From contig JAKVAZ010000008.1 of NCBI GenBank assembly GCA_022447225.1, forward strand, positions 1 to 64,000: a stretch of 64,000 bases of DNA, written 5' to 3'. The position numbers and the translations under genes are program-made. This DNA is from Fuerstiella sp. Its GTDB lineage: Bacteria; Planctomycetota; Planctomycetia; Planctomycetales; Planctomycetaceae. Below, piece after piece: positions 6,289-28,230 of the stretch. Numbering within the stretch: position 1 is the first letter of the stretch; every line of letters starts with the position of its first letter. The notes beneath the pieces were generated by a model, which did no database searches, was not told the origin of the DNA, and worked only from the letters and a program-made list of their open reading frames with translations.

Positions 6289-9054
6289 TCACTTCGACCG
6301 AAACAAACTGCTCGTGACAATCGACGTAACCATTGTGGCCAGTCCATCCCCCTGGCTACGAAGATCGGCGGTGATCCGGTCAACGTCTGACCGATCTGCA
6401 AACGTCAACGGTCTGCCAAGGGCGTAAGTGGTCATTTTGTGAACCATGGCGCGCACAAACTGGTCCTGACGATTTGCCAGCAGAAAACGTTTCAACCCGT
6501 TCATGCCGTCCAGTTTCTGTCTGTTAAACAGCAGACTGGTCGCATCGACGGGTTCTCCGTCGATCTGCGTGCGCCAGCTTCCCACCGCGTCGAAATTTTC
6601 GAATGCGATTCCCCATGGATCGATTTTTGCGTGACACGAGAGGCAGGCGGCATGATTTCGATGATTCTCAATCTGCTGCTTCAACGTCAGTTTTGCGATC
6701 TCAGGGTCGGCAAGGTCGATCTCAGGGACCGCCGGTGGCGGGGGTGGAGGAGGATCGTTCAACAGTCTTTCGAGCATCCAGATTCCTCGTTTGAGCGGAT
6801 GGGAGTCCGTGCCGTCTGAATTCATCGCCAGCAGACCGGCCTGTGTCAGTAATCCACCTCTTCTGTGCTGTGGCTCGTAGTTCACACGGCGAAAATGGTT
6901 GCCATACACATCATTCAAACCGTAGTGCGCGGCAAGTCGTTCATTGGCCATGGTGTAATCAGCGTGGATGAAATCGAACACACTGTTATTTTTCTGCAGT
7001 ACCTCATGGAAGAAGGCGACGGGTTCCTGCTGCATCGCTTCTTTCAAAGCCGAATCGAAGTTCGGATACGCGTTCCGGTTGATATTCATAAAATCCAGCA
7101 ACTGCATTCCCAGCCACTGCCGCACAAAATGTTTCGAAAAACGCCAGGACCGCGTGTCTGCCAGCATACGGCTGACCTGACCGGCCAGAATATCCTGTTC
7201 ACTCAGCTGTCCCTCCGCTGCCAGGTGCAGTAACTCGCTGTCAGGCGTGCTGGACCACAGAAACATGGACAGACGAGTTGCCAGTTCCGAATCAAACAGG
7301 CGGTCCTCGGATGAGCTGCCGTCGGTCTGGTTTGCCTGGTCCGACCGGACCAGATAAATAAATTTTGGTGAAGAAAGCACGGTTGCCAGAACTTCGACCA
7401 TGGCATCCTCAAAATGATCGAACTCAGGACGAATCTTTTTGAACTGAGTCAGTTTCTGATCGACTTCAGCAGGAGTCACACCACGGCGCCATGCACGCGA
7501 CATAAAACTCGTCAGTACTTCACGGGCGTAAACGTTTTCTTCGGCTCTATTGGCACTATCGATAAAAACTCGATTGTGCGAATCCGGCGGCCAATGTTCA
7601 TAAACCGGCGCTGTGATCTCCACATAGTCAATCTGAATATCATCCTGTGACACCGAACTGTTGACCAGCTTCACAAACTCAGACGGATTAGGTGTGGCAC
7701 CCATCTTTGCGGTCCTGCGCACCGAATTGCGGGGATAGATTTCACTCAGCGGAATGTCCCACTGCACAAACGTCGGGTTATCCGGAGCGGCATCAACCGC
7801 CAGGTCGTACTCAGAGATTTTTACAGATGCGGAAGAGTCGTTGCTTGCCTGCCAGCCAAATTCAAGCTGCAGACTGGGATGCCTGTCGTGCCCGACTGAT
7901 GTCCGTGAAGCTCTAACACGAACACGAAGTGTCCCCGTGTCAGGAACCTGATTACCAAGTTCAACGATCAGTTTCTGTTTCGCCGGAATAACGGCCACAT
8001 AATCGAGGACCGACGGTACCTCGGGACGTGAGTTTGTCGGTTTCCTTGCATATTTTGCACCATTGTAAGACCAGGATGCCGCCGCAGTTCGACCTGTCTT
8101 CTGATTTCTGTAGTGAGCGCGGGGCGGTCTGGCCTGATATTCAGCAGTCCGACGTTCAAGTTCCTGTTCCAGCTTTTCCGGATCGTCCTTGTGCGTTTCC
8201 CGGATCTTCTGCAGCTCCTGTTCCTGCTTCTTCCATTCACCGGCCGCTGCAGATTCGAACGACACTCCCCAATAGACAGGTCCCGGCTGTTCCCCGTGCA
8301 CGGTTGCTTTCTTTAAGGCGTTTCGATTCAGTTCGCGATAAGTGCCAAACTGAGTAGTCGACATGTGCAGCAATTCGGAGCTGTTTTGAAAGCCGTCCGG
8401 TGATGTCGATTCCGGCGGCAGATCCCGAGTGAAGTTGTAGGGCAATCCCAGCAAATCCTGCAGCACATAGTTGTACTCATAACGAGTCATCCGTCGAAAC
8501 GATGAATGTCCCTGTTGAGCACGACGAAAAGCTGAAGCCGTCTGAATCTCCGAAGACAGCCACTGAATGACTCTGTTGCGATCGTCATCCGCCAGTGGAG
8601 CTTCATCTACCGGAGGCATTTCACCATTGCTCAGCACAGCAAAAATTTCGAGCCACCAGTTTACATCGTCCCCCTGCAACAGATTCGCATCCAGCGTGTC
8701 GATGCGAATATTGCCCTCCTGAATGTCAGGACCGTGACATTGAACACAGTTTTGATTCAGGACAGGCTCGACGTCTGTTCGGAAACCGTCCAAATTCGGT
8801 TCCGGCGTTTCAGCACCGGCCGGTGGCCGCTGCTGATTGCGATAACTCGATCGGAGTGCGCCTTCTACTCTGAGTTCAGCGAGTGTCCGGGGCGCCGGAT
8901 CACTTTCGTCGACTCCACCGGACCGTGGCCCTGCCGAGGGCGCTGAGCCGGCTCCACCGTCGTCCTGGTCCGCCGCAACTTCCCCCATAGCGCCCAGCAG
9001 AGCGATAAGTAAGATCACGCATCGACAGGCCGATTCAGTACTGTTTACTATCAT
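6289..9054 (-). CDS. DUF1587/1592/1588/1585 multi-domain cytochrome-like protein
   Basis: A 921-residue exported protein. After a signal sequence comes a low-complexity Gly/Ser/Pro linker and then a heme-binding-like motif CVQCH (C103, C106, H107), the planctomycete cytochrome c domain. It continues with a DUF1587 block (FRRMTRYEYNYVLQDLLGLP), a central beta-rich region with Arg/Val repeats, and a DUF1592 segment (SELATRLSMFLWSSTPDSEL). The DUF1588 segment contains GGLLTQAGLLAMNSDGTDSH, a poly-proline hinge and a second CLSCH motif. The C-terminal DUF1585 segment (YALGRPLTFADRSDVDRI) closes the protein. Domain order and length match the family. The function is not proven experimentally; extracytoplasmic electron transfer coupled to its DUF1552 partner (4799-6199) is the common proposal. 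The ATG at 9054 directly begins the hydrophobic leader. Confidence 0.93.
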   Translation of the reverse strand: MIVNSTESACRCVILLIALLGAMGEVAADQDDGGAGSAPSAGPRSGGVDESDPAPRTLAELRVEGALRSSYRNQQRPPAGAETPEPNLDGFRTDVEPVLNQNCVQCHGPDIQEGNIRIDTLDANLLQGDDVNWWLEIFAVLSNGEMPPVDEAPLADDDRNRVIQWLSSEIQTASAFRRAQQGHSSFRRMTRYEYNYVLQDLLGLPYNFTRDLPPESTSPDGFQNSSELLHMSTTQFGTYRELNRNALKKATVHGEQPGPVYWGVSFESAAAGEWKKQEQELQKIRETHKDDPEKLEQELERRTAEYQARPPRAHYRNQKTGRTAAASWSYNGAKYARKPTNSRPEVPSVLDYVAVIPAKQKLIVELGNQVPDTGTLRVRVRASRTSVGHDRHPSLQLEFGWQASNDSSASVKISEYDLAVDAAPDNPTFVQWDIPLSEIYPRNSVRRTAKMGATPNPSEFVKLVNSSVSQDDIQIDYVEITAPVYEHWPPDSHNRVFIDSANRAEENVYAREVLTSFMSRAWRRGVTPAEVDQKLTQFKKIRPEFDHFEDAMVEVLATVLSSPKFIYLVRSDQANQTDGSSSEDRLFDSELATRLSMFLWSSTPDSELLHLAAEGQLSEQDILAGQVSRMLADTRSWRFSKHFVRQWLGMQLLDFMNINRNAYPNFDSALKEAMQQEPVAFFHEVLQKNNSVFDFIHADYTMANERLAAHYGLNDVYGNHFRRVNYEPQHRRGGLLTQAGLLAMNSDGTDSHPLKRGIWMLERLLNDPPPPPPPAVPEIDLADPEIAKLTLKQQIENHRNHAACLSCHAKIDPWGIAFENFDAVGSWRTQIDGEPVDATSLLFNRQKLDGMNGLKRFLLANRQDQFVRAMVHKMTTYALGRPLTFADRSDVDRITADLRSQGDGLATMVTSIVTSSLFRSK

Positions 9055-9280
9055 GTCGATTCTGAAGCCGTCGTTTCAAACCGTTTTGCATTCTGCTGTG
9101 ATTGTTTCCATCAGAAAATCCATTCTACCGCGCCAGCCAGGCATGAAGCAACTGGTCCTAAGTCATAACGTCAAAGCAAATTACGTCACACTGTCGTCTC
9201 GATGATGAGGGCAAATGGCACAACCGGTACCGGCCCCCATACGAATCCCCGGCGCGAAAGGCTCGGTTGTCGGAATACTG

Positions 9281-18572: not shown

Positions 18573-20252
18573 TTATCTGTCAGTACGATCCACAGGCAAA
18601 TCAATTTCGTCCAGCCCGTCCCGCTGAGCGTACGGTCGCACCTCTGAATACCATTGGCGCCAAACGCGGGATGCCTTGTCTTTCCAGACCTGGGCCGCGT
18701 TGAGCTTCGCAGCCTTGTCAGCATCCGCAGGCAACTGGCTCAGCGGGTTAAGCGAAAGACCGAATCCGTCTGGTCGTCGGGCGATGTATCGCAGGCTGGC
18801 CACGGCTTCGGTACTGACCTGAAAGTTGGGATCCTGAATCCCGTCGAGCATCAAAGGGATCAGATCGAAATCACGAGTACGTGAAAGCGCCCAGTAAGCG
18901 ACCTGACGATTGCCCGGATCGGGACTCCTGACCAGTACCTTCAGTTTTTCTGCTTCTCCAATCAGTTCCTTCCTGTCAGTGAATTGAACGGTCTTTACAA
19001 CATCGCCGATCTCCAAATCATCCGGCAGATCACTAATATTGAGCCGTTCAATCTGAGTCAGTAATTCATCCAGTGGCAGAATTTTTTTCCGGTTTGCTCC
19101 TCCTGGCCGGACATGCGCCAGCAGGTCCCGCCCTCCTTTCAGAACACCCTTGCCATAGTTAAAAATCTGATCCGTAGCCTTGGTGAAATACAAAATGGCA
19201 AAACAGGTCTCGACAGCAGCGCCATATCCAAGGCTCTTTCCTTCGAAATGCCCATCCGCTCGCTGAAGAGTCAACAACCCGTCACCGTAGAACGTAAACC
19301 AATCATCCCGGATATTCACGAATGCGGCAGCGCGTTCAAGCGTGTAGTAGAAATACAGTCTGTGTCCGGGTATGGGTACAGGTGCATAGCGGACCTCATT
19401 CCAGGCTACCCCCCGAGCGATACATTCATCAATTAAACGTAAGCTTACATCGGGGTTGTAATCATGATATGCAGACACCTCCATCTCAACTTCGCTCTGA
19501 TCCAGAACTCCTAACCGTTCTAATTGATTAACTCTTGCCGAATCGGCGGGGGCCTGCCCCCCCCCGGAAAATAACAGCATCCGACAGATCCCGATTGTTC
19601 CCAACCCGGCAACCGTCATATTAATCCGACTAGGATCAGATGCCCCTGTGATTGGGATTTTGTACGGCCAGCCGCCGCCTGGATTTTCATGTTCGATCAG
19701 GTAGGACGCAGCTTTGTCAAATGTACGCGGATTGACTTCGCAGCCAGCACGTTTTGCCGCCCAAAGGGCCAGAACACAATATTGCGTCAAGCTGATATCC
19801 GCTGGCCCCGAAGGACCAAGCCGGGGAGAATTATGCGGCCAGGAACCATCTGACCTCTGATAAGACTCAATCATTCTCGCGATTTTCTGAATCACCCTCC
19901 GGTATTTCCTGCCATCTATATCGGCCAGCAACATTGCGTCAACTGCCGCAAGGTACGACCCGGAATACTGGTCATACGTAGCCACGTCGGCCCGCTGCCG
20001 GGCCTGGTGAATCCCCTGGACCAGTCGTGGTTCCGAACGATCAACTCCTGCCTTCAGCAGGGCATATGCCACAAGCGAAGTCTCTCGTTCCTCAAGCCCT
20101 GGCACGGACTGAAGAAACGAGACAGCCCTGGCAAGAGCGTCATCGTATCTGGGAATGCTCGTTGTTTTCAGTTCAGCAACAGCCGATGGCCAAATTACCG
20201 CTGCAAAGGACAAAGCGATGCAGATCCTGAAAACATTCAGTCGTACATTCAC
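18573..20252 (-). CDS. Secreted prenyltransferase/terpene-cyclase-like alpha-toroid protein with HEAT-like tail
   Basis: A 559-residue protein starting at a GTG preceded by GAGGTG. A signal peptide (VFRICIALSFAAVIWPS) is followed by alpha-alpha toroid repeats (residues about 40-380) with motifs such as SYQRSDGSWPHN, ENPGGGWPYK, TLQRADGHFEGKSLGYGAAVETCFAILYF, resembling the prenyltransferase/squalene-oxidase repeat family. No DxDD or other cyclase acid motif is visible, so it is probably not an enzyme. The last 120 residues contain a HEAT-like stretch (NRQVAYWALSRTRDFDLIPLML). Planctomycetes carry many such exported proteins of unknown function. A run of nine G in the coding strand (19557-19565) encodes Gly-Gly-Gly at residues about 230-232 and could slip. 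Confidence 0.85.
   Translation of the reverse strand: MNVRLNVFRICIALSFAAVIWPSAVAELKTTSIPRYDDALARAVSFLQSVPGLEERETSLVAYALLKAGVDRSEPRLVQGIHQARQRADVATYDQYSGSYLAAVDAMLLADIDGRKYRRVIQKIARMIESYQRSDGSWPHNSPRLGPSGPADISLTQYCVLALWAAKRAGCEVNPRTFDKAASYLIEHENPGGGWPYKIPITGASDPSRINMTVAGLGTIGICRMLLFSGGGQAPADSARVNQLERLGVLDQSEVEMEVSAYHDYNPDVSLRLIDECIARGVAWNEVRYAPVPIPGHRLYFYYTLERAAAFVNIRDDWFTFYGDGLLTLQRADGHFEGKSLGYGAAVETCFAILYFTKATDQIFNYGKGVLKGGRDLLAHVRPGGANRKKILPLDELLTQIERLNISDLPDDLEIGDVVKTVQFTDRKELIGEAEKLKVLVRSPDPGNRQVAYWALSRTRDFDLIPLMLDGIQDPNFQVSTEAVASLRYIARRPDGFGLSLNPLSQLPADADKAAKLNAAQVWKDKASRVWRQWYSEVRPYAQRDGLDEIDLPVDRTDR
19557..19565 (-). repeat. G9 homopolymer inside a coding sequence
   Basis: Nine C on the plus strand, that is nine G in the coding strand, encoding three Gly codons before Gln-Ala (SGGGQA). 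Runs of this length can slip during replication and switch genes on and off. Confidence 0.8.
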
Positions 20253-21547: not shown

Positions 21548-22753
21548 TCATCCCTGTCCGAAAAATGCCTTCCGGATTCTGTGGAGAAATGAACGACAGA
21601 GTCTGACTGCCGGAGAGGATTGCAGTGCGATCCGCACTCGGCCACGAGCAGTCAGGCGTTTTTTGGCCTGCTGACGGCGAGGCGGAAGACGCATCAGTCC
21701 GTCAAAGACCTGCGACAATACATCAACGTGACGATCCATAGAAAACGGAACGATAGTTTCCATGGCAGCCGCGCAGACCTTCCGGCGGAACTCGTCGTTG
21801 CACACAATACGCTGAAGATGGTCGGTTGCTTTCTGCACATCACCAATTTCGAAAAGCAGGCCGTTAACACCGTGATTGATAATTCCTTCCACACCACTAT
21901 CGGTACGTGTCACGACCGGTATACAGCCAAATCCCATCGCTTCAAGGATGCTGTTGCTTGTCCCTTCAAACTCAGAACACAGTAACACGACATCAGTGTT
22001 TTTCCATACTTCATTCATCTGTTCAGGATGAATGCGACCGCAGAACCGCACTTTTCCCTGAGCAACCTGTGTTTCAAGGCAGGCTCGAAGAAGGTGTTCT
22101 TCTTTGCCATCCCCAATGATTTGCAGTTCGTAATCAACATTCCGATCGTCAAGACGATGTGCGATCAGAGCAATATCCAGAATTCTTTTCTGGTGTTGAA
22201 TGACACGACCGGCATAGACCATGCGTAAGGGACCTGAGAACTTGAGGTCCCCCCGGTCCGGGGACACATATACACCGGTCGGAAGCATGGTAATGTCGCT
22301 GCCACGCGATGGTATCAACGACTCCAGTTTTGATGCACAGGTGGGACTCACCGCTATGAAATGCGAAATCAAATCAGCCCGTTTCTGAAGCGGATCGTAG
22401 TATTCCTTTTTACTGTCGGCGCGACAATAACCCAGAATCCGCCATTCCCGGCCTGAGGCGATTGCTTCGCACATCGGGTAAAACAGGTCCCACATGTAAT
22501 TGGGGATAATGACACCACTGCCCAGAGTCTCAAGCAATGGAATGATCTGGCGAGGTCGCTCATACGTGTGATCGAAACGGATTGTTCCGTCGCCGGGACC
22601 ATGCGTCGAGACGAGCCTCACGTCATAATTTTCGTTCCGAGCGAATGCTTCCTGAACGCGCAGTGCCCAGGAAACAACACCGGAAACGACCGGAGAAATA
22701 ACAATTAGTACAGGGAGCTTTTTCAATTTCTTAACGTTACGTTTTGTCACCAT
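21548..22753 (-). CDS. Glycosyltransferase family 4
   Basis: A 401-residue protein with a GT-B fold. An N-terminal glycine-containing loop (SPVVSGVVSWALRVQEAF), the donor-domain YAGRVIQHQKRILDIALI and the C-terminal EFEGTSNSILEAMGFGCIPV (the E-x7-E motif of GT4 enzymes) are all present. The C-terminal tail is basic and proline-rich (residues about 360-401). It is a retaining transferase using a nucleotide sugar, probably acting at the cytoplasmic face of the membrane. The start is the ATG at 22753. Its upstream flank is a long gene-poor region that contains the AlgJ-like pseudogene. Confidence 0.92.
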   Translation of the reverse strand: MVTKRNVKKLKKLPVLIVISPVVSGVVSWALRVQEAFARNENYDVRLVSTHGPGDGTIRFDHTYERPRQIIPLLETLGSGVIIPNYMWDLFYPMCEAIASGREWRILGYCRADSKKEYYDPLQKRADLISHFIAVSPTCASKLESLIPSRGSDITMLPTGVYVSPDRGDLKFSGPLRMVYAGRVIQHQKRILDIALIAHRLDDRNVDYELQIIGDGKEEHLLRACLETQVAQGKVRFCGRIHPEQMNEVWKNTDVVLLCSEFEGTSNSILEAMGFGCIPVVTRTDSGVEGIINHGVNGLLFEIGDVQKATDHLQRIVCNDEFRRKVCAAAMETIVPFSMDRHVDVLSQVFDGLMRLPPRRQQAKKRLTARGRVRIALQSSPAVRLCRSFLHRIRKAFFGQG

Positions 22754-23631
22754 TTGTGACCACAGCAGGGCTGGTATCGTTTAAATTCCGTTTCCTCGGC
22801 CACGATGGTATTCCGTATGCAAGAACACTGGACGCGGCCCCTTCATTCAGCAATCACCGGTGTTTTCAGTAATACACCGCGCAGGACACTCGCGTCCCAG
22901 CCGATCGAAAACAGCCATTCCATTGACCCGGGTGTGACTATCAACTGGGAAATCGTCGGAACCAGTAACGCCGGCTTGATCAGTAACTCAGTAAAACCGT
23001 TACCCATTGCCCTCACACGATGAGACATTTCAGGGTATCAACATGGAATTAGTCAGCTGACGCTCACAGGAACGACCCTAAAAAATCGGCCACCTTCAAT
23101 AAATTCGCAAAAAGGACCAGGGTGGTCGCCATTTCTGACCGGATGACAGCGAGGATTGTCATCGGAAAATGTTACGTTGATGCTCGGTCGTCTGTTGGAA
23201 GTACCTCAGTCAATCGTTCATGTTTATCAACCCCAGATGTACGATTTCCGCATTAAAAGATCACCTGAACGAACACATTGACTGCCCGCAAAAACCGAGT
23301 AGACCCTGGAATTGCCTGACCACGACCGGGAGTTAAAGATTGGAACGAATGAAATAAACCTGTTTTCCTGGCAGGAGTGAGTTACTTCATCCACCGATTG
23401 GCAGGACGATGACAAAAGTGAGATAACGTTTCCCGGCACACCGGGACATGGAGAGGCACTCAGAAAGACGCGCAGAGCAAACAAACATTCACTGTTTGCT
23501 GTAAACAGATCTCTATGCGAATGCGTTGTCTGTCAGGTGAACACTCCCTGTTCCTTGTGAATTCACCACGTGTTTTTTACTGAACCGATCCCGGAGAACT
23601 TCTAACTATCCGTATATTGCGGCTTCTGTGA
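22754..23631. other. Gene-poor region upstream of the AlgJ-like pseudogene
   Basis: Nearly 900 bases have no intact gene on either strand. It may contain the eroded N-terminal part of the acetyltransferase remnant at 23632-24214; a fragment reading SLFLVNSPRVFY (about 23550) could correspond to the early strand of that family, but this is weak. Confidence 0.4.
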
Positions 23632-24214
23632 CTGAATTCTGACATCGACGTACCGGATCTGACCGATTTTCTCATCAGCCATAAACAGAATGATCTGCTG
23701 TACGACAAAACGGATACACGGGAACGAGCTGGGTGCGTGTTTGGCAGCGTCTGAGATGCTCCGGAAACGTCAGAACAAGTGTCCGGCAGTCCGTTCACCC
23801 AAACCTTCACGATGAAGTCGACATCAGGTGACCCTGCAGAAATGCTGACGTGGAAAACCCGTTTTCAGGAAGCAGCGGTTCGCTGCCGTTCACGCGAAGC
23901 AAAACTAGTCCTAGGTGGAACTCCACGGAAGCGTTTCCTACAACCAACATTCTGATTCCTTCCTGGTTTCCACCAACTATCATTCGGACAATCCTAAACT
24001 TCTGATGTTTCAAGATTCGTTTGCAACACGACCGGCGCCGTTTCTCTCTACGGAGTTTTCGGAAGTTCAATATTGGCGGCAGGTCGATGAACTGGATATA
24101 GAGAGAATTGTCGCGGAACGACCCGATATTGTGATTTTGCAAATTGTTGAACGATTGCTGCTGCACAATAAACCCAGGCTGAATACCGACATTCTGTCCG
24201 GATCGAACAGATGA
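23632..24214 (+). pseudogene. Decayed AlgJ/AlgX-like SGNH acetyltransferase
   Basis: Two reading frames together give a recognisable C-terminal half of a polysaccharide O-acetyltransferase. Frame one (from 23632) reads SDIDVPDLTDF, then NDLLYDKTDTRERAG, where intact relatives have DTHW. It is interrupted by TGA at 23752-23754, continues through GDPAEML and is lost at another stop near 23947-23949. The second frame (from about 23915) reads NPKLLMFQDSFATRPAPFL, EFSEVQYW, then VAERPDIVILQIVERLL, the usual ending. So the N-terminus is missing, an in-frame stop and a frameshift are present, and the catalytic His of the D-x-H pair has become Arg. Its final TGA overlaps the ATG of the next glycosyltransferase (24211), as in an old operon. 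Loss of sugar acetylation is inferred. Confidence 0.7.
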
Positions 24215-25470
24215 GAACTCCTGTAAGCACGATCGAGAACGGCGACGACATGCTTTTTCAGAACTCCCGGCGGAAGCGAAGAGGTGATGACATCCTGTTC
24301 CTCGGACATGATGCATCCCGGACGGGTGCGCCCATCGTCCTGCTTCGAATGCTACGCTGGCTGCGGGAGAATACCGATCTTTCGTTTTCGGTCATCCTGG
24401 GTGCGGGGGGACCGCTTGAGCCGGACTACAGCGAAGTCGCAAACACGAAAGTTTGCTACCTGGCGACTCAAACCGAGTCTCACTTTCTGCGTCCTTTGCT
24501 GAAAATTCCCGGACTTCGCCGGGTCATTAGTTATTCGCACAGACGACTGTTGAGGCTCCGGCTGCGGTTTCGGAAACCGCAAATGATCTATGCAAATACT
24601 TCAGCAACGGGTGACATGCTCGAGTTCTTTGATTTAAACAATGTGCCAACGGTGACACATGTCCATGAACTGGAGGTCGTCCTGCGCACGCTGATAGGAC
24701 TCCGTCAGTTTGCTCAAACAATTCGACATACGAATCGTTTTCTGGCGGTATCGCAGGCGGTCCGTCAAAATCTCATGCAGAACCACAACATTAGTGATGA
24801 TGACATCGAAATGGTTCCGGAATTTTTGCCGATCGGTGAGCATTCCCCGGAGAACTGGAAAAACGCAAGGCTCAACTTCGTTCAACGTTTTGATATGCCG
24901 GAGGACGCGTTTATTGTCGGTGCTTCCGGAACACCCGGGTGGCGCAAAGGATCCGATCTATTCGTTCAGGTCGCGGGGCACGTGGCGAGGACTCACCCTG
25001 AGGCACCGATCTATTTTGCCTGGATTGGTGGACCTCTGTCCGCCACTGAGTCGGAATACCTTCTCCATGACTGTGACCGTCTGGGAGTGAGAGAACGGAT
25101 TCGTTTCATCGACACGCAACCGGATCCAATTGCGTTGTTCCAGGGACTCAGTGTGTTTGCCATGGTGTCACGCGAAGATCCCTATCCAATCGTTACCATC
25201 GAAACGGCTGCGGAAGCGGTACCGATCGTGTGCTTTGACCAGGCAGGGGGAACTCAGGAACTGGTGGAAGACGACGCAGGATTTGTGGTTCCTTATCTGG
25301 ACACAGCCGCAATGGCCAACCGAATTGTAGAGCTGTTTGATGCGCCAGGTCTTCGGAATCAGCTGGGGAATCGAGCCAGAGAAAAGGTTCTGGAACGCAA
25401 TAACGCGGCCGTGGTTATGCCTCTGATTGCCGATGTGATTCGTCGGAACACAGGAAACCGTGTCGATTGA
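24211..25470 (+). CDS. Glycosyltransferase family 4
   Basis: A 419-residue GT-B enzyme. After a basic N-terminus come DILFLGHDASRTGAPIVLLR (acceptor-binding first loop), the central linker VSQAVRQNLMQNHNI, the donor-domain GASGTPGWRKGSDLFVQVAG, and the ending SREDPYPIVTIETAAEAV with an E-x7-E-type placement and GGTQELVEDDAGFVVPY. It probably adds a sugar to a surface glycan at the cytoplasmic membrane. The ATG at 24211 overlaps the stop of the acetyltransferase pseudogene; an alternative is the ATG at 24250 (MLFQNSRRKRRGDD). The former coupling suggests that the acetyltransferase and this transferase once worked on the same polymer. Confidence 0.92.
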   Translation: MRTPVSTIENGDDMLFQNSRRKRRGDDILFLGHDASRTGAPIVLLRMLRWLRENTDLSFSVILGAGGPLEPDYSEVANTKVCYLATQTESHFLRPLLKIPGLRRVISYSHRRLLRLRLRFRKPQMIYANTSATGDMLEFFDLNNVPTVTHVHELEVVLRTLIGLRQFAQTIRHTNRFLAVSQAVRQNLMQNHNISDDDIEMVPEFLPIGEHSPENWKNARLNFVQRFDMPEDAFIVGASGTPGWRKGSDLFVQVAGHVARTHPEAPIYFAWIGGPLSATESEYLLHDCDRLGVRERIRFIDTQPDPIALFQGLSVFAMVSREDPYPIVTIETAAEAVPIVCFDQAGGTQELVEDDAGFVVPYLDTAAMANRIVELFDAPGLRNQLGNRAREKVLERNNAAVVMPLIADVIRRNTGNRVD

Positions 25471-25660
25471 ACCACACCCTTTCTGTATCACAGAGACAGA
25501 ATTTCACTTCCGTTTCTTCCGGAAACATTGGTGCTCATGTCATAATCTCCGCTTTGAATATACGTGTTTGAAAGTTAGCGGTAATTTTGGCGACGCGATT
25601 TTTTCAGTGCATTCAGCAGGAACCAGACATGATTCCTGCTGAATGTTTGTTGTTCTGATC

Positions 25661-25666
25661 AAGGAG
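25661..25666 (+). promoter_or_regulatory. Ribosome-binding site AAGGAG pointing to a non-AUG start
   Basis: AAGGAG is followed after 5 and 8 bases by two in-frame ATC codons (25672 and 25675), not by ATG. No in-frame ATG, GTG or TTG occurs between the upstream stop (25630) and TTG 25711. Confidence 0.45.
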
Positions 25667-25671
25667 ACCGA

Positions 25672-26484
25672 ATCATCGGAACCAAGCACGATGTCTTAAC
25701 GGAAACCGAATTGAGTCAGTATTCTGTCTCACATAATATTCTGTCCCGACTCACAACACTCCAGGCAGAACATAACAGTCCGACAAATCAGATCAATGTG
25801 CTCGACTGGGGCTGCGGACGCGGTCGTACCGTGGCAAAGCTTCGGGAAATGGGATTCAATGCGTTCGGAGTCGAGATTGACAGAACAACCATGCAAAACG
25901 GTTTCAGGCTGTTTGAGAATCGGGACATGAATCCGACAGAGATGCTGCGTCACGTGGACGATCTCGATTCATTTCCGGAATCGTTTTTCCATTTTGTCTG
26001 CTCAGAACAGGTATTCGAACACGTTGCGGATCTCAGCGTTGTTGTTGCTGAACTGGCCCGCCTGACAGCTGACCAGGGTATTGGTGTGCACAATTTTCCC
26101 AGTGCTCGCTGTGTTATGGAAGAACATTTGTTCATGCCGTTTGTGCACTGGTTACCAAAAAATCGCCTGCGAAAAGCGGCAATTCGGCTGATGCTGTCAC
26201 TGGGACAGGGACCAAAACCGGACTGGCCCGAAGTCATCGAAAAAACAGCTGCCGGCCGAACTCAGGTTTATTTTGATTACACCGTTCAGCGAACCTTCTA
26301 TCGTGATATTCGGGATATCGTTGAGTTGTTCGTATCAGCCGGATTTGACGCAAACACGACGGTTCGTGACACCACAACGTTCTGGAAACGGCTGCTGCTT
26401 CCGGACTATCTGAACCGAAATGGATTTCCCAATCAGCGAACAACGCTGGTAACGCGACGAATCCGCAGTAACGACGATACCTGA
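25672..26484 (+). CDS. Class I SAM-dependent methyltransferase, unusual start
   Basis: The frame is open from 25633 to 26484. The body has a SAM motif VLDWGCGRGRTVAKLREMGFNAFGVEID, the post-motif FPESFFHFVCSEQVFEHVADL, and a late VGVHNFP-like segment (here GVHNFPSARCVM). The C-terminal half (residues about 140-220) has helices and FYRDIRDIVELFVSAGFD. A conventional start would be the TTG at 25711 (257 residues), but AAGGAG lies 5 bases before an ATC at 25672, and the added residues IIGTKHDVLTETELSQYSVS resemble the usual N-terminus of such methyltransferases. Initiation at AUC is therefore suspected; a sequencing change of one base would also restore ATG. Likely role: methylation of a sugar or lipid precursor next to the glycosyltransferase. 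Confidence 0.8.
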   Translation: MIGTKHDVLTETELSQYSVSHNILSRLTTLQAEHNSPTNQINVLDWGCGRGRTVAKLREMGFNAFGVEIDRTTMQNGFRLFENRDMNPTEMLRHVDDLDSFPESFFHFVCSEQVFEHVADLSVVVAELARLTADQGIGVHNFPSARCVMEEHLFMPFVHWLPKNRLRKAAIRLMLSLGQGPKPDWPEVIEKTAAGRTQVYFDYTVQRTFYRDIRDIVELFVSAGFDANTTVRDTTTFWKRLLLPDYLNRNGFPNQRTTLVTRRIRSNDDT

Positions 26485-26669
26485 TCATTTCTAAAAATGA
26501 GTTACTGCAGATGACAGGTGGAATTCATCCATGAAACTAGCGGGAAATGTGATAGCTCATTTGAGGGACCCGCGCTACTAACGTCCCCGCTGCCGGCTGG
26601 CATTGCTGTCTACCTGAAAACACGTAACAGACACAGGCGTCTCAACTCAGGTCCAAAGGTGGCAACAGA

Positions 26670-27791
26670 ATGCGAATTGTGGAAAGAGGGATCATCAACA
26701 CCGGAGAGCGGGGTACCAGCCGGGCGGTTGGGACATTTCCCGCGACAACCGCGATGGCGGATGGTTCACTCCTTGCCTCCTACCGCATCGGCTCCACCAA
26801 GGATTCGGCCGATGCCACCGTGGAACTGCGACGCTCCACCGATAGCGGCCGCAGCTGGAGCGATCCGGAGCGTCCGTTCCGCACCGACTTTGACGGCATG
26901 AAAGGGTCGCTGCGCTGCGTCTACCTTACTGTCCTGGCTGAGAGGCATCTCATTGCCGCCGGGATGTGGATCGATCGCACAACCTATCCGGACCAACCGA
27001 TTTTCAACGAGAACACTGAAGGCTGCCTGCCGATCAAACTGCTGCTTTCGGAGTCAGAGAACGGTGGCCGCAGCTGGTCTCCCTGGCGGCACATCCCGAC
27101 AGGAGAGGACATCGGACCGCCCAGCCTGACAAACCCGATCCTGCTGTTGCCCGACAGGAGGCTGGCGCTAAGCATTGAAACCAACAAACAGTACCACGAT
27201 GACTCACCCTGGCTACAACGCGTGGTCTACATGTACTCGGAAGACGGCGGCTACAGCTGGGGGAAAACAACAACGATCTGCCAGGATCCAAAAGGACGGA
27301 TCTTCAACTGGGACCAGCGTGCCGGTGTCGGCCCTGACGGCCGTCTGGTCACTTTCACCTGGACGTACGACAGCCGGACGACCCGCTACCTGAACATTCA
27401 CCGTCGCATCAGTGCAACTGAGGGCAACAGCTGGACGACGGCGGAAGACCTGGGCTTTGCTGATCAGCCATCGGTCCCGGCCGTACTGCCGGACGGCCGA
27501 GTCGTCCTCGCCTGGGTCGATCGCTTCCGCAGCCGATCGATTCGTGCCCGAATGGCACCGGCCATCGACGCTCCGTTCGCACCCGAAACCGAGGTAGAAC
27601 TCTACAAGCCTCATGCAGTAACGTCGACGGTGGTCGGCGGAGAGGATACAGGCGAGTTGCTAACCGAGATGGGAACGTGGAATTACGGCCTGCCGCATGC
27701 AGAAGTAATGTCGAACGGTGACGTTCTGGTGGTGTACTATGCCGGTGAAGACGACCGCATGGACGTCTGCTGGGTGCGACTGACGCTGTAG
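26670..27791 (+). CDS. Sialidase-like (BNR/Asp-box) beta-propeller protein, no signal peptide
   Basis: A 373-residue protein with several Asp boxes (S-x-D-x-G-x-x-W): STDSGRSW (S56-W63), SESENGGRSW, SEDGGYSW and ATEGNSW. A glycine-rich start (RAVGTFPATTAMADGSLLASYR) and ending (LLTEMGTWNYGLPHAEVMSNGDVLVVYY) complete the six-bladed sialidase propeller. No signal peptide is visible in the first 30 residues, so the protein is probably cytoplasmic or uses another export route; secreted sialidases are the rule. Catalytic Tyr, Glu and Arg triad residues could not be assigned with confidence. The substrate is unknown. The GC-rich, Asp/Arg-rich codon use differs a little from neighbours. The start is the ATG at 26670. 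Confidence 0.85.
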   Translation: MRIVERGIINTGERGTSRAVGTFPATTAMADGSLLASYRIGSTKDSADATVELRRSTDSGRSWSDPERPFRTDFDGMKGSLRCVYLTVLAERHLIAAGMWIDRTTYPDQPIFNENTEGCLPIKLLLSESENGGRSWSPWRHIPTGEDIGPPSLTNPILLLPDRRLALSIETNKQYHDDSPWLQRVVYMYSEDGGYSWGKTTTICQDPKGRIFNWDQRAGVGPDGRLVTFTWTYDSRTTRYLNIHRRISATEGNSWTTAEDLGFADQPSVPAVLPDGRVVLAWVDRFRSRSIRARMAPAIDAPFAPETEVELYKPHAVTSTVVGGEDTGELLTEMGTWNYGLPHAEVMSNGDVLVVYYAGEDDRMDVCWVRLTL

Positions 27792-28230
27792 AACCGAGGT
27801 GTTGACGAGGAGAGAATCAATTTGATGTGTGCAGAACATCCACGTCAATTTCAGAAACATTCGAAGCAGGCATGTCTCCTTTCACTCACGGTCAGCTGAA
27901 ATTCCCGCGCCAACTCAGACAGTTTTGAAACAGCCTGTCAGTATCCGATGAACACTGGCTTTCCTGATTCTATGCATCGATTCCAGGTTCTCCCGCAATC
28001 GGAAGAGGCAGCACCCGGAAATCAAGTTTTTTTTATATTCATACGGAGTCACCCGGACCATCATAAATTAGGAATTGTCTGTTGGCATCCGTCCGGTTAA
28101 CCTGACTCGTCCTGCCCGCATGTCGTCTCTGCCTGTTTTATTCTGATCAACTCCGACCTGACGGATCATCCGCACAAAACATGTTTTCCTGTGATACGCA
28201 ACCAGCCGGTCCAGTCGATTACCTGAGAAA
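27792..28230. other. Intergenic gap, no gene seen
   Basis: 440 bases that include an AT-rich stretch (T8 near 28026). No gene, RNA or repeat was recognised; it probably holds the promoter of the downstream gene. Confidence 0.4.

Follow-up and report, generated by a model that had tools for sequence, protein, structure and literature searches.

A probable pseudogene remnant of a deletion-fused MBOAT-SGNH O-acyltransferase cassette in a glycan gene region of Fuerstiella sp.

Results and discussion

A broken gene pair between two glycosyltransferase genes

The locus described here lies between two intact glycosyltransferase genes in the window, which is the whole stretch of 64,000 nucleotides analysed and is the start of contig 8 of the Fuerstiella sp. 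assembly (5.43 Mb in 33 contigs). Judged from its sequence, it is very probably a pseudogene remnant of a two-gene MBOAT-SGNH O-acyltransferase cassette that has been largely deleted and deletion-fused. A piece homologous to SGNH acetyltransferases is preceded, in the right order, on the same strand and in contact with it, by a short, strong MBOAT match; the MBOAT 3' half and the SGNH 5' half are missing, and the remaining frames are broken. A deletion-fused cassette rather than a single point-mutated acetyltransferase is the most likely reading, and apart from that the locus shows commonplace decay within a region of glycan genes. A literature search that combined planctomycetes, MBOAT and pseudogenes found no earlier description. 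The features are as follows.

21548 to 22753, minus strand: intact, divergent glycosyltransferase (PF13692/PF00534); 80% identical protein in G001, a genome of the same genus
22754 to 23587, no strand assigned: stretch expected to hold the 5' part of the MBOAT gene; nothing recognisable, no Rfam match
23038 to 23272, no strand assigned: stretch also conserved in G001, ahead of the same glycosyltransferase, from an extended local alignment; core 75% over 84 bases, 23137-23220
23588 to 23639, plus strand: mid-MBOAT (AlgI/PatA-type) remnant, model positions 268-284 of 482, one frame change inside
23639 to 23641, plus strand: apparent deletion junction between mid-MBOAT and mid-SGNH, from the spacing in intact operons
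23635 to 24193, plus strand: SGNH acetyltransferase (PF16822/AlgJ-like) remnant, model positions 191-383 of 385, three frame changes
23710 to 23722, plus strand: what was the catalytic DxH(W) motif, now reading T-D-T/H-G with a breaking frameshift inside it at about 23717
23915 to 24214, plus strand: best preserved part; open for 99 codons, it includes the former serine motif QDSF and, at the C-terminus, PDIVILQIVERLL
24211 to 25470, plus strand: intact downstream glycosyltransferase (PF00534/PF13692); 80% identical protein in G001

In a Pfam scan, the other neighbours of the remnant were a weak GT8-like protein, an NKWYS-type protein, methyltransferases and a BNR protein. At 18573-20252 of the window, a protein with sub-threshold squalene-hopene-cyclase-like and HEAT matches adjoins the glycan genes.

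The SGNH remnant

The preliminary description of this DNA held that a decayed AlgJ/AlgX-type gene (PF16822) lies among the glycosyltransferases, and this is borne out by two kinds of search. When a profile (A1) of eight intact ALGX-type proteins, from the same family or class as the host, was run against the host's own genome, it matched 23714-24190 of contig 8 with E=3.1e-18, and the only further match up to E=10 was at E=0.195. All seven of the eight profile proteins that were scanned passed the PF16822 cut-off, and it is through these intact homologues that the remnant belongs to PF16822 by sequence similarity. The Pfam model PF16822 itself did not reach the remnant in a search of the same genome, the sole place it reported being on contig C1. 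When the locus was aligned to 34 intact homologues with a custom aligner, which permits frame changes and stops at a cost and gives bit scores and not calibrated E-values, it scored 115.0 bits over 23635-24193, as against a mean of 16.9 and a maximum of 22.1 bits in 60 dinucleotide shuffles and 16.3 bits on the minus strand. The 34 homologues are open frames that were left after duplicates, rows of 150 bits or less and rows spanning 300 model positions or fewer had been dropped.

The peptides NDLLYDKTDT, GDPAEML, MFQDSFATRPAPFL and VAERPDIVILQIVERLL, on which the family assignment had been based, are indeed found in two plus-strand frames at the remnant. When its four pieces were scored singly, each against 60 shuffles, three exceeded all shuffles (30.2, 29.5 and 78.4 bits against shuffle maxima of 18.4, 19.3 and 18.9, the last pair being that of the 99-codon frame). 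The GDPAEML piece is the weakest, at 19.1 bits against a shuffle maximum of 19.5, and was accepted because it is placed in order between stronger pieces. The 99-codon frame taken alone had no PF16822 match at E<=1 and no meaningful match in Pfam. When it was used as a query against 59 genomes, the host's own included, 29 had a match at E<=1, mostly at chance level. The five best matches outside the host's genome (5.5e-8 and 1.0e-6 for tandem copies in one genome, then 5.3e-6, 6.8e-6 and 2.0e-5) were all within open frames of 398-445 codons, and identity among the best was 35-42%. An AlgJ-like label on the 99-codon frame would be misleading. A related-locus search with it in the genome-contig collection found no relative, and Rfam had no match across 22700-24300 up to E=0.1.

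Where a single frameshift near 23915-23950 had been described, the alignment requires three, near 23717, near 23812 and between 23904 and 23915. It crosses no in-frame stop, even when stops were almost forbidden. The first frame change falls inside the DTHW motif, and the corrected reading is DT/HGNELGACLA, in which the His is kept and the Trp position is Gly. Two lesions named earlier, DTHW changed to DTRE and the TGA at 23752, could be read as an active-site substitution and a nonsense mutation, but both disappear with this frame change; they arose because the reading had stayed in the old frame past about 23717. The TGA is outside the corrected frame, and 23635-23904 scores 52.3 bits with frame changes as against 31.8 without. 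None of the 34 intact homologues departs from D, H and W in the DTHW motif or from S in the serine motif. The letters for Asp, His and Ser are recognisable in the remnant, and frame changes must be crossed to bring the catalytic Asp and His (DxH) and the Ser together, the three never standing in one reading frame. The N-terminal half of the SGNH protein (model positions 1-190 of 385) was not found upstream, where the best score was 15.8 bits and was reached by 24 of 60 shuffles, and the PF16822 domain is thus incomplete.

It might be argued that the organism has an intact gene and that the breaks are sequencing or assembly errors, the genome being a 33-contig assembly. This is extremely unlikely, because base errors do not take away so much sequence: besides the three frame changes about half of the SGNH gene is absent, whereas the neighbouring genes are open across hundreds of codons.

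At its 3' end the remnant closes with a TGA (24212-24214) that overlaps the ATG at 24211, as had been noted before. Whether that ATG is the real start of the glycosyltransferase is doubtful, because the 80% identical G001 protein aligns to this reading from residue 18 only, and the true start may lie 3' of 24211. One might still suppose that the 99-codon frame is made as a small protein, or is kept for translational coupling to the glycosyltransferase, since it is an open frame with a good match to the family over roughly its last 75 codons and a stop that overlaps the ATG. We regard this as highly improbable, because the frame lacks the half of the active site that carries Asp and His, along with most of the domain, and G001 does not share the overlapped start.

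The MBOAT piece

The MBOAT match at 23588-23639 means that the wreck starts before 23632, the beginning given earlier, and involves two genes. This match reads IPENF/NYPYIAASVTEF, compared to the consensus flenF/ryPyiarsvteF of an MBOAT profile of 10 and later 32 sequences, and it carries the conserved MBOAT region ENFxYPYxxxSVTEF (PF03062). It scored 29.8 bits, or 26.7 bits when frame changes were forbidden. In 600 pieces of 90 bases drawn at random from the window the score never rose above 18.4 bits, and 30 shuffles of 22754-23660 gave a maximum of 21.8.

The possibility has to be weighed that the SGNH gene alone decayed and that the MBOAT-like motif upstream of it is a chance resemblance. 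The piece is short, being 17 residues with one frame change, and elsewhere in the window, which was covered by 52 chunk-strand scans, the MBOAT runner-up scored 26.6 bits. When 22754-23640 was fitted with lenient chaining, the MBOAT score was 40.5, which 9 of 100 shuffles equalled or passed and which the minus strand also reached; the additional MBOAT pieces that this collinear-looking fit suggested in 22754-23587 were rejected. No single MBOAT match in 22754-23585 exceeded 13.7 bits, which is below the shuffle mean of about 16. In view of the 26.6-bit score and the result of the chained fit, score and position together have to carry the MBOAT claim. Chance is nevertheless very unlikely as the explanation, given that 29.8 bits were found in the 90 bases that adjoin the SGNH remnant, with strand and order right and the two pieces in contact, and that an MBOAT partner would account for the missing SGNH 5' half. 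The MBOAT piece beside the SGNH remnant makes a past acylation cassette at the locus more likely.

The rest of the MBOAT protein, including its C-terminal Tyr motif, was not found, and the SGNH remnant begins directly past 23639. The upstream stretch 22754-23587 is 834 bases long, close to the 783-810 bases of the MBOAT 5' part in eight operons. It counts against the deletion-fused cassette that nothing of this 5' part can be recognised while the motif has survived well.

The junction and the proposed history

Among the 34 intact relatives, 27 have an MBOAT open frame at most 400 bases upstream of the SGNH gene on the same strand. Two of the exceptions (L071 and L086) have an MBOAT frame upstream that overlaps the SGNH frame by more than 400 bases, an effect of taking frames from stop to stop; two are second tandem SGNH copies; one (G020) has an ABC-2 permease upstream; one (L084) begins less than 450 bases from a contig end; and one (L029) had no MBOAT match. 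Tandem PF16822-type pairs behind one MBOAT were seen in two other genomes of the same class (L094, 2140-3336 and 3340-4533; L105, 7277-8608 and 8536-9843). In the remnant the MBOAT match ends at 23639 and the SGNH match starts at 23635 or 23641, varying with the fit. The spacing of the same two points is 1196-1412 bases in seven of eight intact operons and 1 base at the remnant; in the eighth operon it is 2649 bases because the second tandem SGNH gene was hit.

Acyl transfer across the membrane by an MBOAT-SGNH pair is known from PatAB and has been proposed for alginate. In the intact pair the MBOAT protein (AlgI/PatA type) would have taken an acyl group from a cytoplasmic donor and the SGNH protein (PF16822, AlgJ/PatB type) would have placed it on a glycan outside. 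A probable history is that a deletion of about 1.2-1.4 kb, a size taken from the relatives, joined mid-MBOAT to mid-SGNH, whereby the MBOAT 3' half and the SGNH 5' half would both have gone, and that frameshifts broke the rest of the cassette. We infer a single deletion and this order of events, and likewise a past action of the cassette on the polymer of the neighbouring glycosyltransferases; that polymer as the target, and acetyl as the acyl group, are putative. A past function like that of AlgJ or PatAB would follow by homology, and the remnant as it stands cannot act in this way. The locus illustrates how such a cassette may die, as one deletion between adjacent genes would disable both partners together.

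The locus in the genus and in other genomes

The preliminary description also stated that the decoration was lost in this strain. This cannot be shown: G001 keeps both flanking glycosyltransferases, each 80% identical, and has no detectable SGNH remnant before the downstream one (17.3 bits, which is null level). At cut-offs of E<=1e-30 and 1e-40 neither glycosyltransferase had a match in G002, the other genome of the genus, and a search there with the remnant region found none either. An intact orthologue beside the same glycosyltransferase, which had been suggested as a check, was looked for and not found in the three genomes of the genus, and that no relative with an intact cassette at this locus was found, so that the deletion is not seen directly, also counts against the best reading. 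Because G001 is without the SGNH remnant, the cassette may have arrived only in the host lineage. Among 150 genomes of the family the downstream glycosyltransferase was found at E<=1e-30 in the host's own genome, G001, G003 and G144; at E<=1e-5 the A1 profile had no match in G001 or G003, and its match in G144 was on a different contig.

The stretch conserved with G001, 23038-23272, pairs with 9016-9264 of the G001 locus (L059) amid hardly alignable sequence, and its copy in the window has no Rfam match. The methyltransferase and BNR genes of the window (25648-27792) have their G001 counterparts at L059 6358-8421, in inverted orientation and on the opposite flank of the glycosyltransferase. 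To the eye, MBOAT-like pieces were present in G001 too (L059 8475-8549, LDNFRYAY and RDNDLVPLGKNR). No MBOAT claim is made for them: a chained score as high came from 53 of 100 shuffles, and with respect to the block common with the window they lie in the reverse order.

A broken fragment could have been imported by recombination and never have functioned at this locus, an explanation that is compatible with the deletion-fused cassette and concerns where the cassette died. The absence of such a remnant from both G001 and G002 and the inversion that sets G001 apart speak for import. There is, however, no positive sign of transfer, and the plasmid collection held no DNA similar to the remnant region. 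The G+C content in windows over 23250-24249 is 47.8-49.2%, which is within the 46-61% of the surroundings and is not decisive, and the 3' end of the remnant extends to the downstream gene, as would be possible for the end of a normal gene. On balance import is unlikely.

In the GTDB collection 93 relatives of the downstream glycosyltransferase were confirmed, and among the best 80 of these 93 loci one, in Xanthocytophaga flavus, had MBOAT and SGNH matches in its flanks; the absence is weaker at 13 of the 80, because those loci are shorter than 10 kb. The order in Xanthocytophaga flavus, which speaks for a cassette at the remnant, is a glycosyltransferase of the same family (33% identical), directly followed by a 162-codon MBOAT frame and then an intact 403-codon SGNH frame, whose protein is 42% identical over 57 residues to the best preserved piece of the remnant. 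This MBOAT (L124 8140-8625) is in frame and without its middle, model positions 6-83 being joined to 410-482, which may be a real deletion or an assembly collapse. Together with the fused wreck in the window and the lack of one in G001, the middle-less MBOAT is the basis for a further idea, namely that acylation cassettes beside this glycosyltransferase family have been gained and shed repeatedly. We consider this very improbable; if true, it would point to recurrent selection against the decoration.

Known systems and the O-acylation genes that remain

The AlgI-AlgJ/AlgX system (PF03062 and PF16822) has a homologous SGNH domain, AlgJ (4o8v) being the best solved match of the intact-relative profile (E=5.8e-22), and has its MBOAT gene beside the SGNH gene as in the relatives of the remnant. 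According to PMC4148444, AlgJ has a Ser-His-Asp triad with a DxH motif and a permuted order; the remnant's family likewise has DxH ahead of the serine motif. Unlike that system, both genes are fragments here, and no alginate-specific Pfam family was matched among 20 frames scanned, a subset of the window's genes. The second solved match of the same profile was PatB1 of Bacillus cereus (5v8d, E=2.1e-20), of the PatA-PatB system. According to PMC12148441, the MBOAT of PatAB transfers acetyl to a tyrosine of its own C-terminal hexapeptide, and an acetyl-tyrosine peptide of that sort is usable as donor by PatB. The MBOAT relatives end in the consensus FiYfrF, which is compatible with the Tyr-containing C-terminal hexapeptide of PatA reported there, whereas the remnant is without the MBOAT C-terminus. 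The intact MBOAT-SGNH operons of planctomycetes of the same family or class, from which the profiles were made (for example G025:C47, G050:C1 and G053:C1), have the same gene order and strand as the remnant; they differ from it in being intact and in lying in other gene contexts, and the three named are 29-37% identical to its best preserved piece.

Complete loss of O-acylation should not be concluded, because two MBOAT genes persist on contig C1 of the host (L103 2977-4455 and 13129-14643), about 9 kb apart and 45% identical to each other, and the host cell may still O-acylate some glycan. One of them adjoins a GDSL/SGNH-type protein with a sub-threshold ALGX match. As cognates of the remnant they were set aside: they are 35-42% identical to eight SGNH-linked MBOATs of relatives, which are mutually about 45-58% identical, and by this comparison of identities, made without a tree, they look like another group. 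The frames between the two C1 MBOAT genes resemble, by eye, histidine biosynthesis genes.
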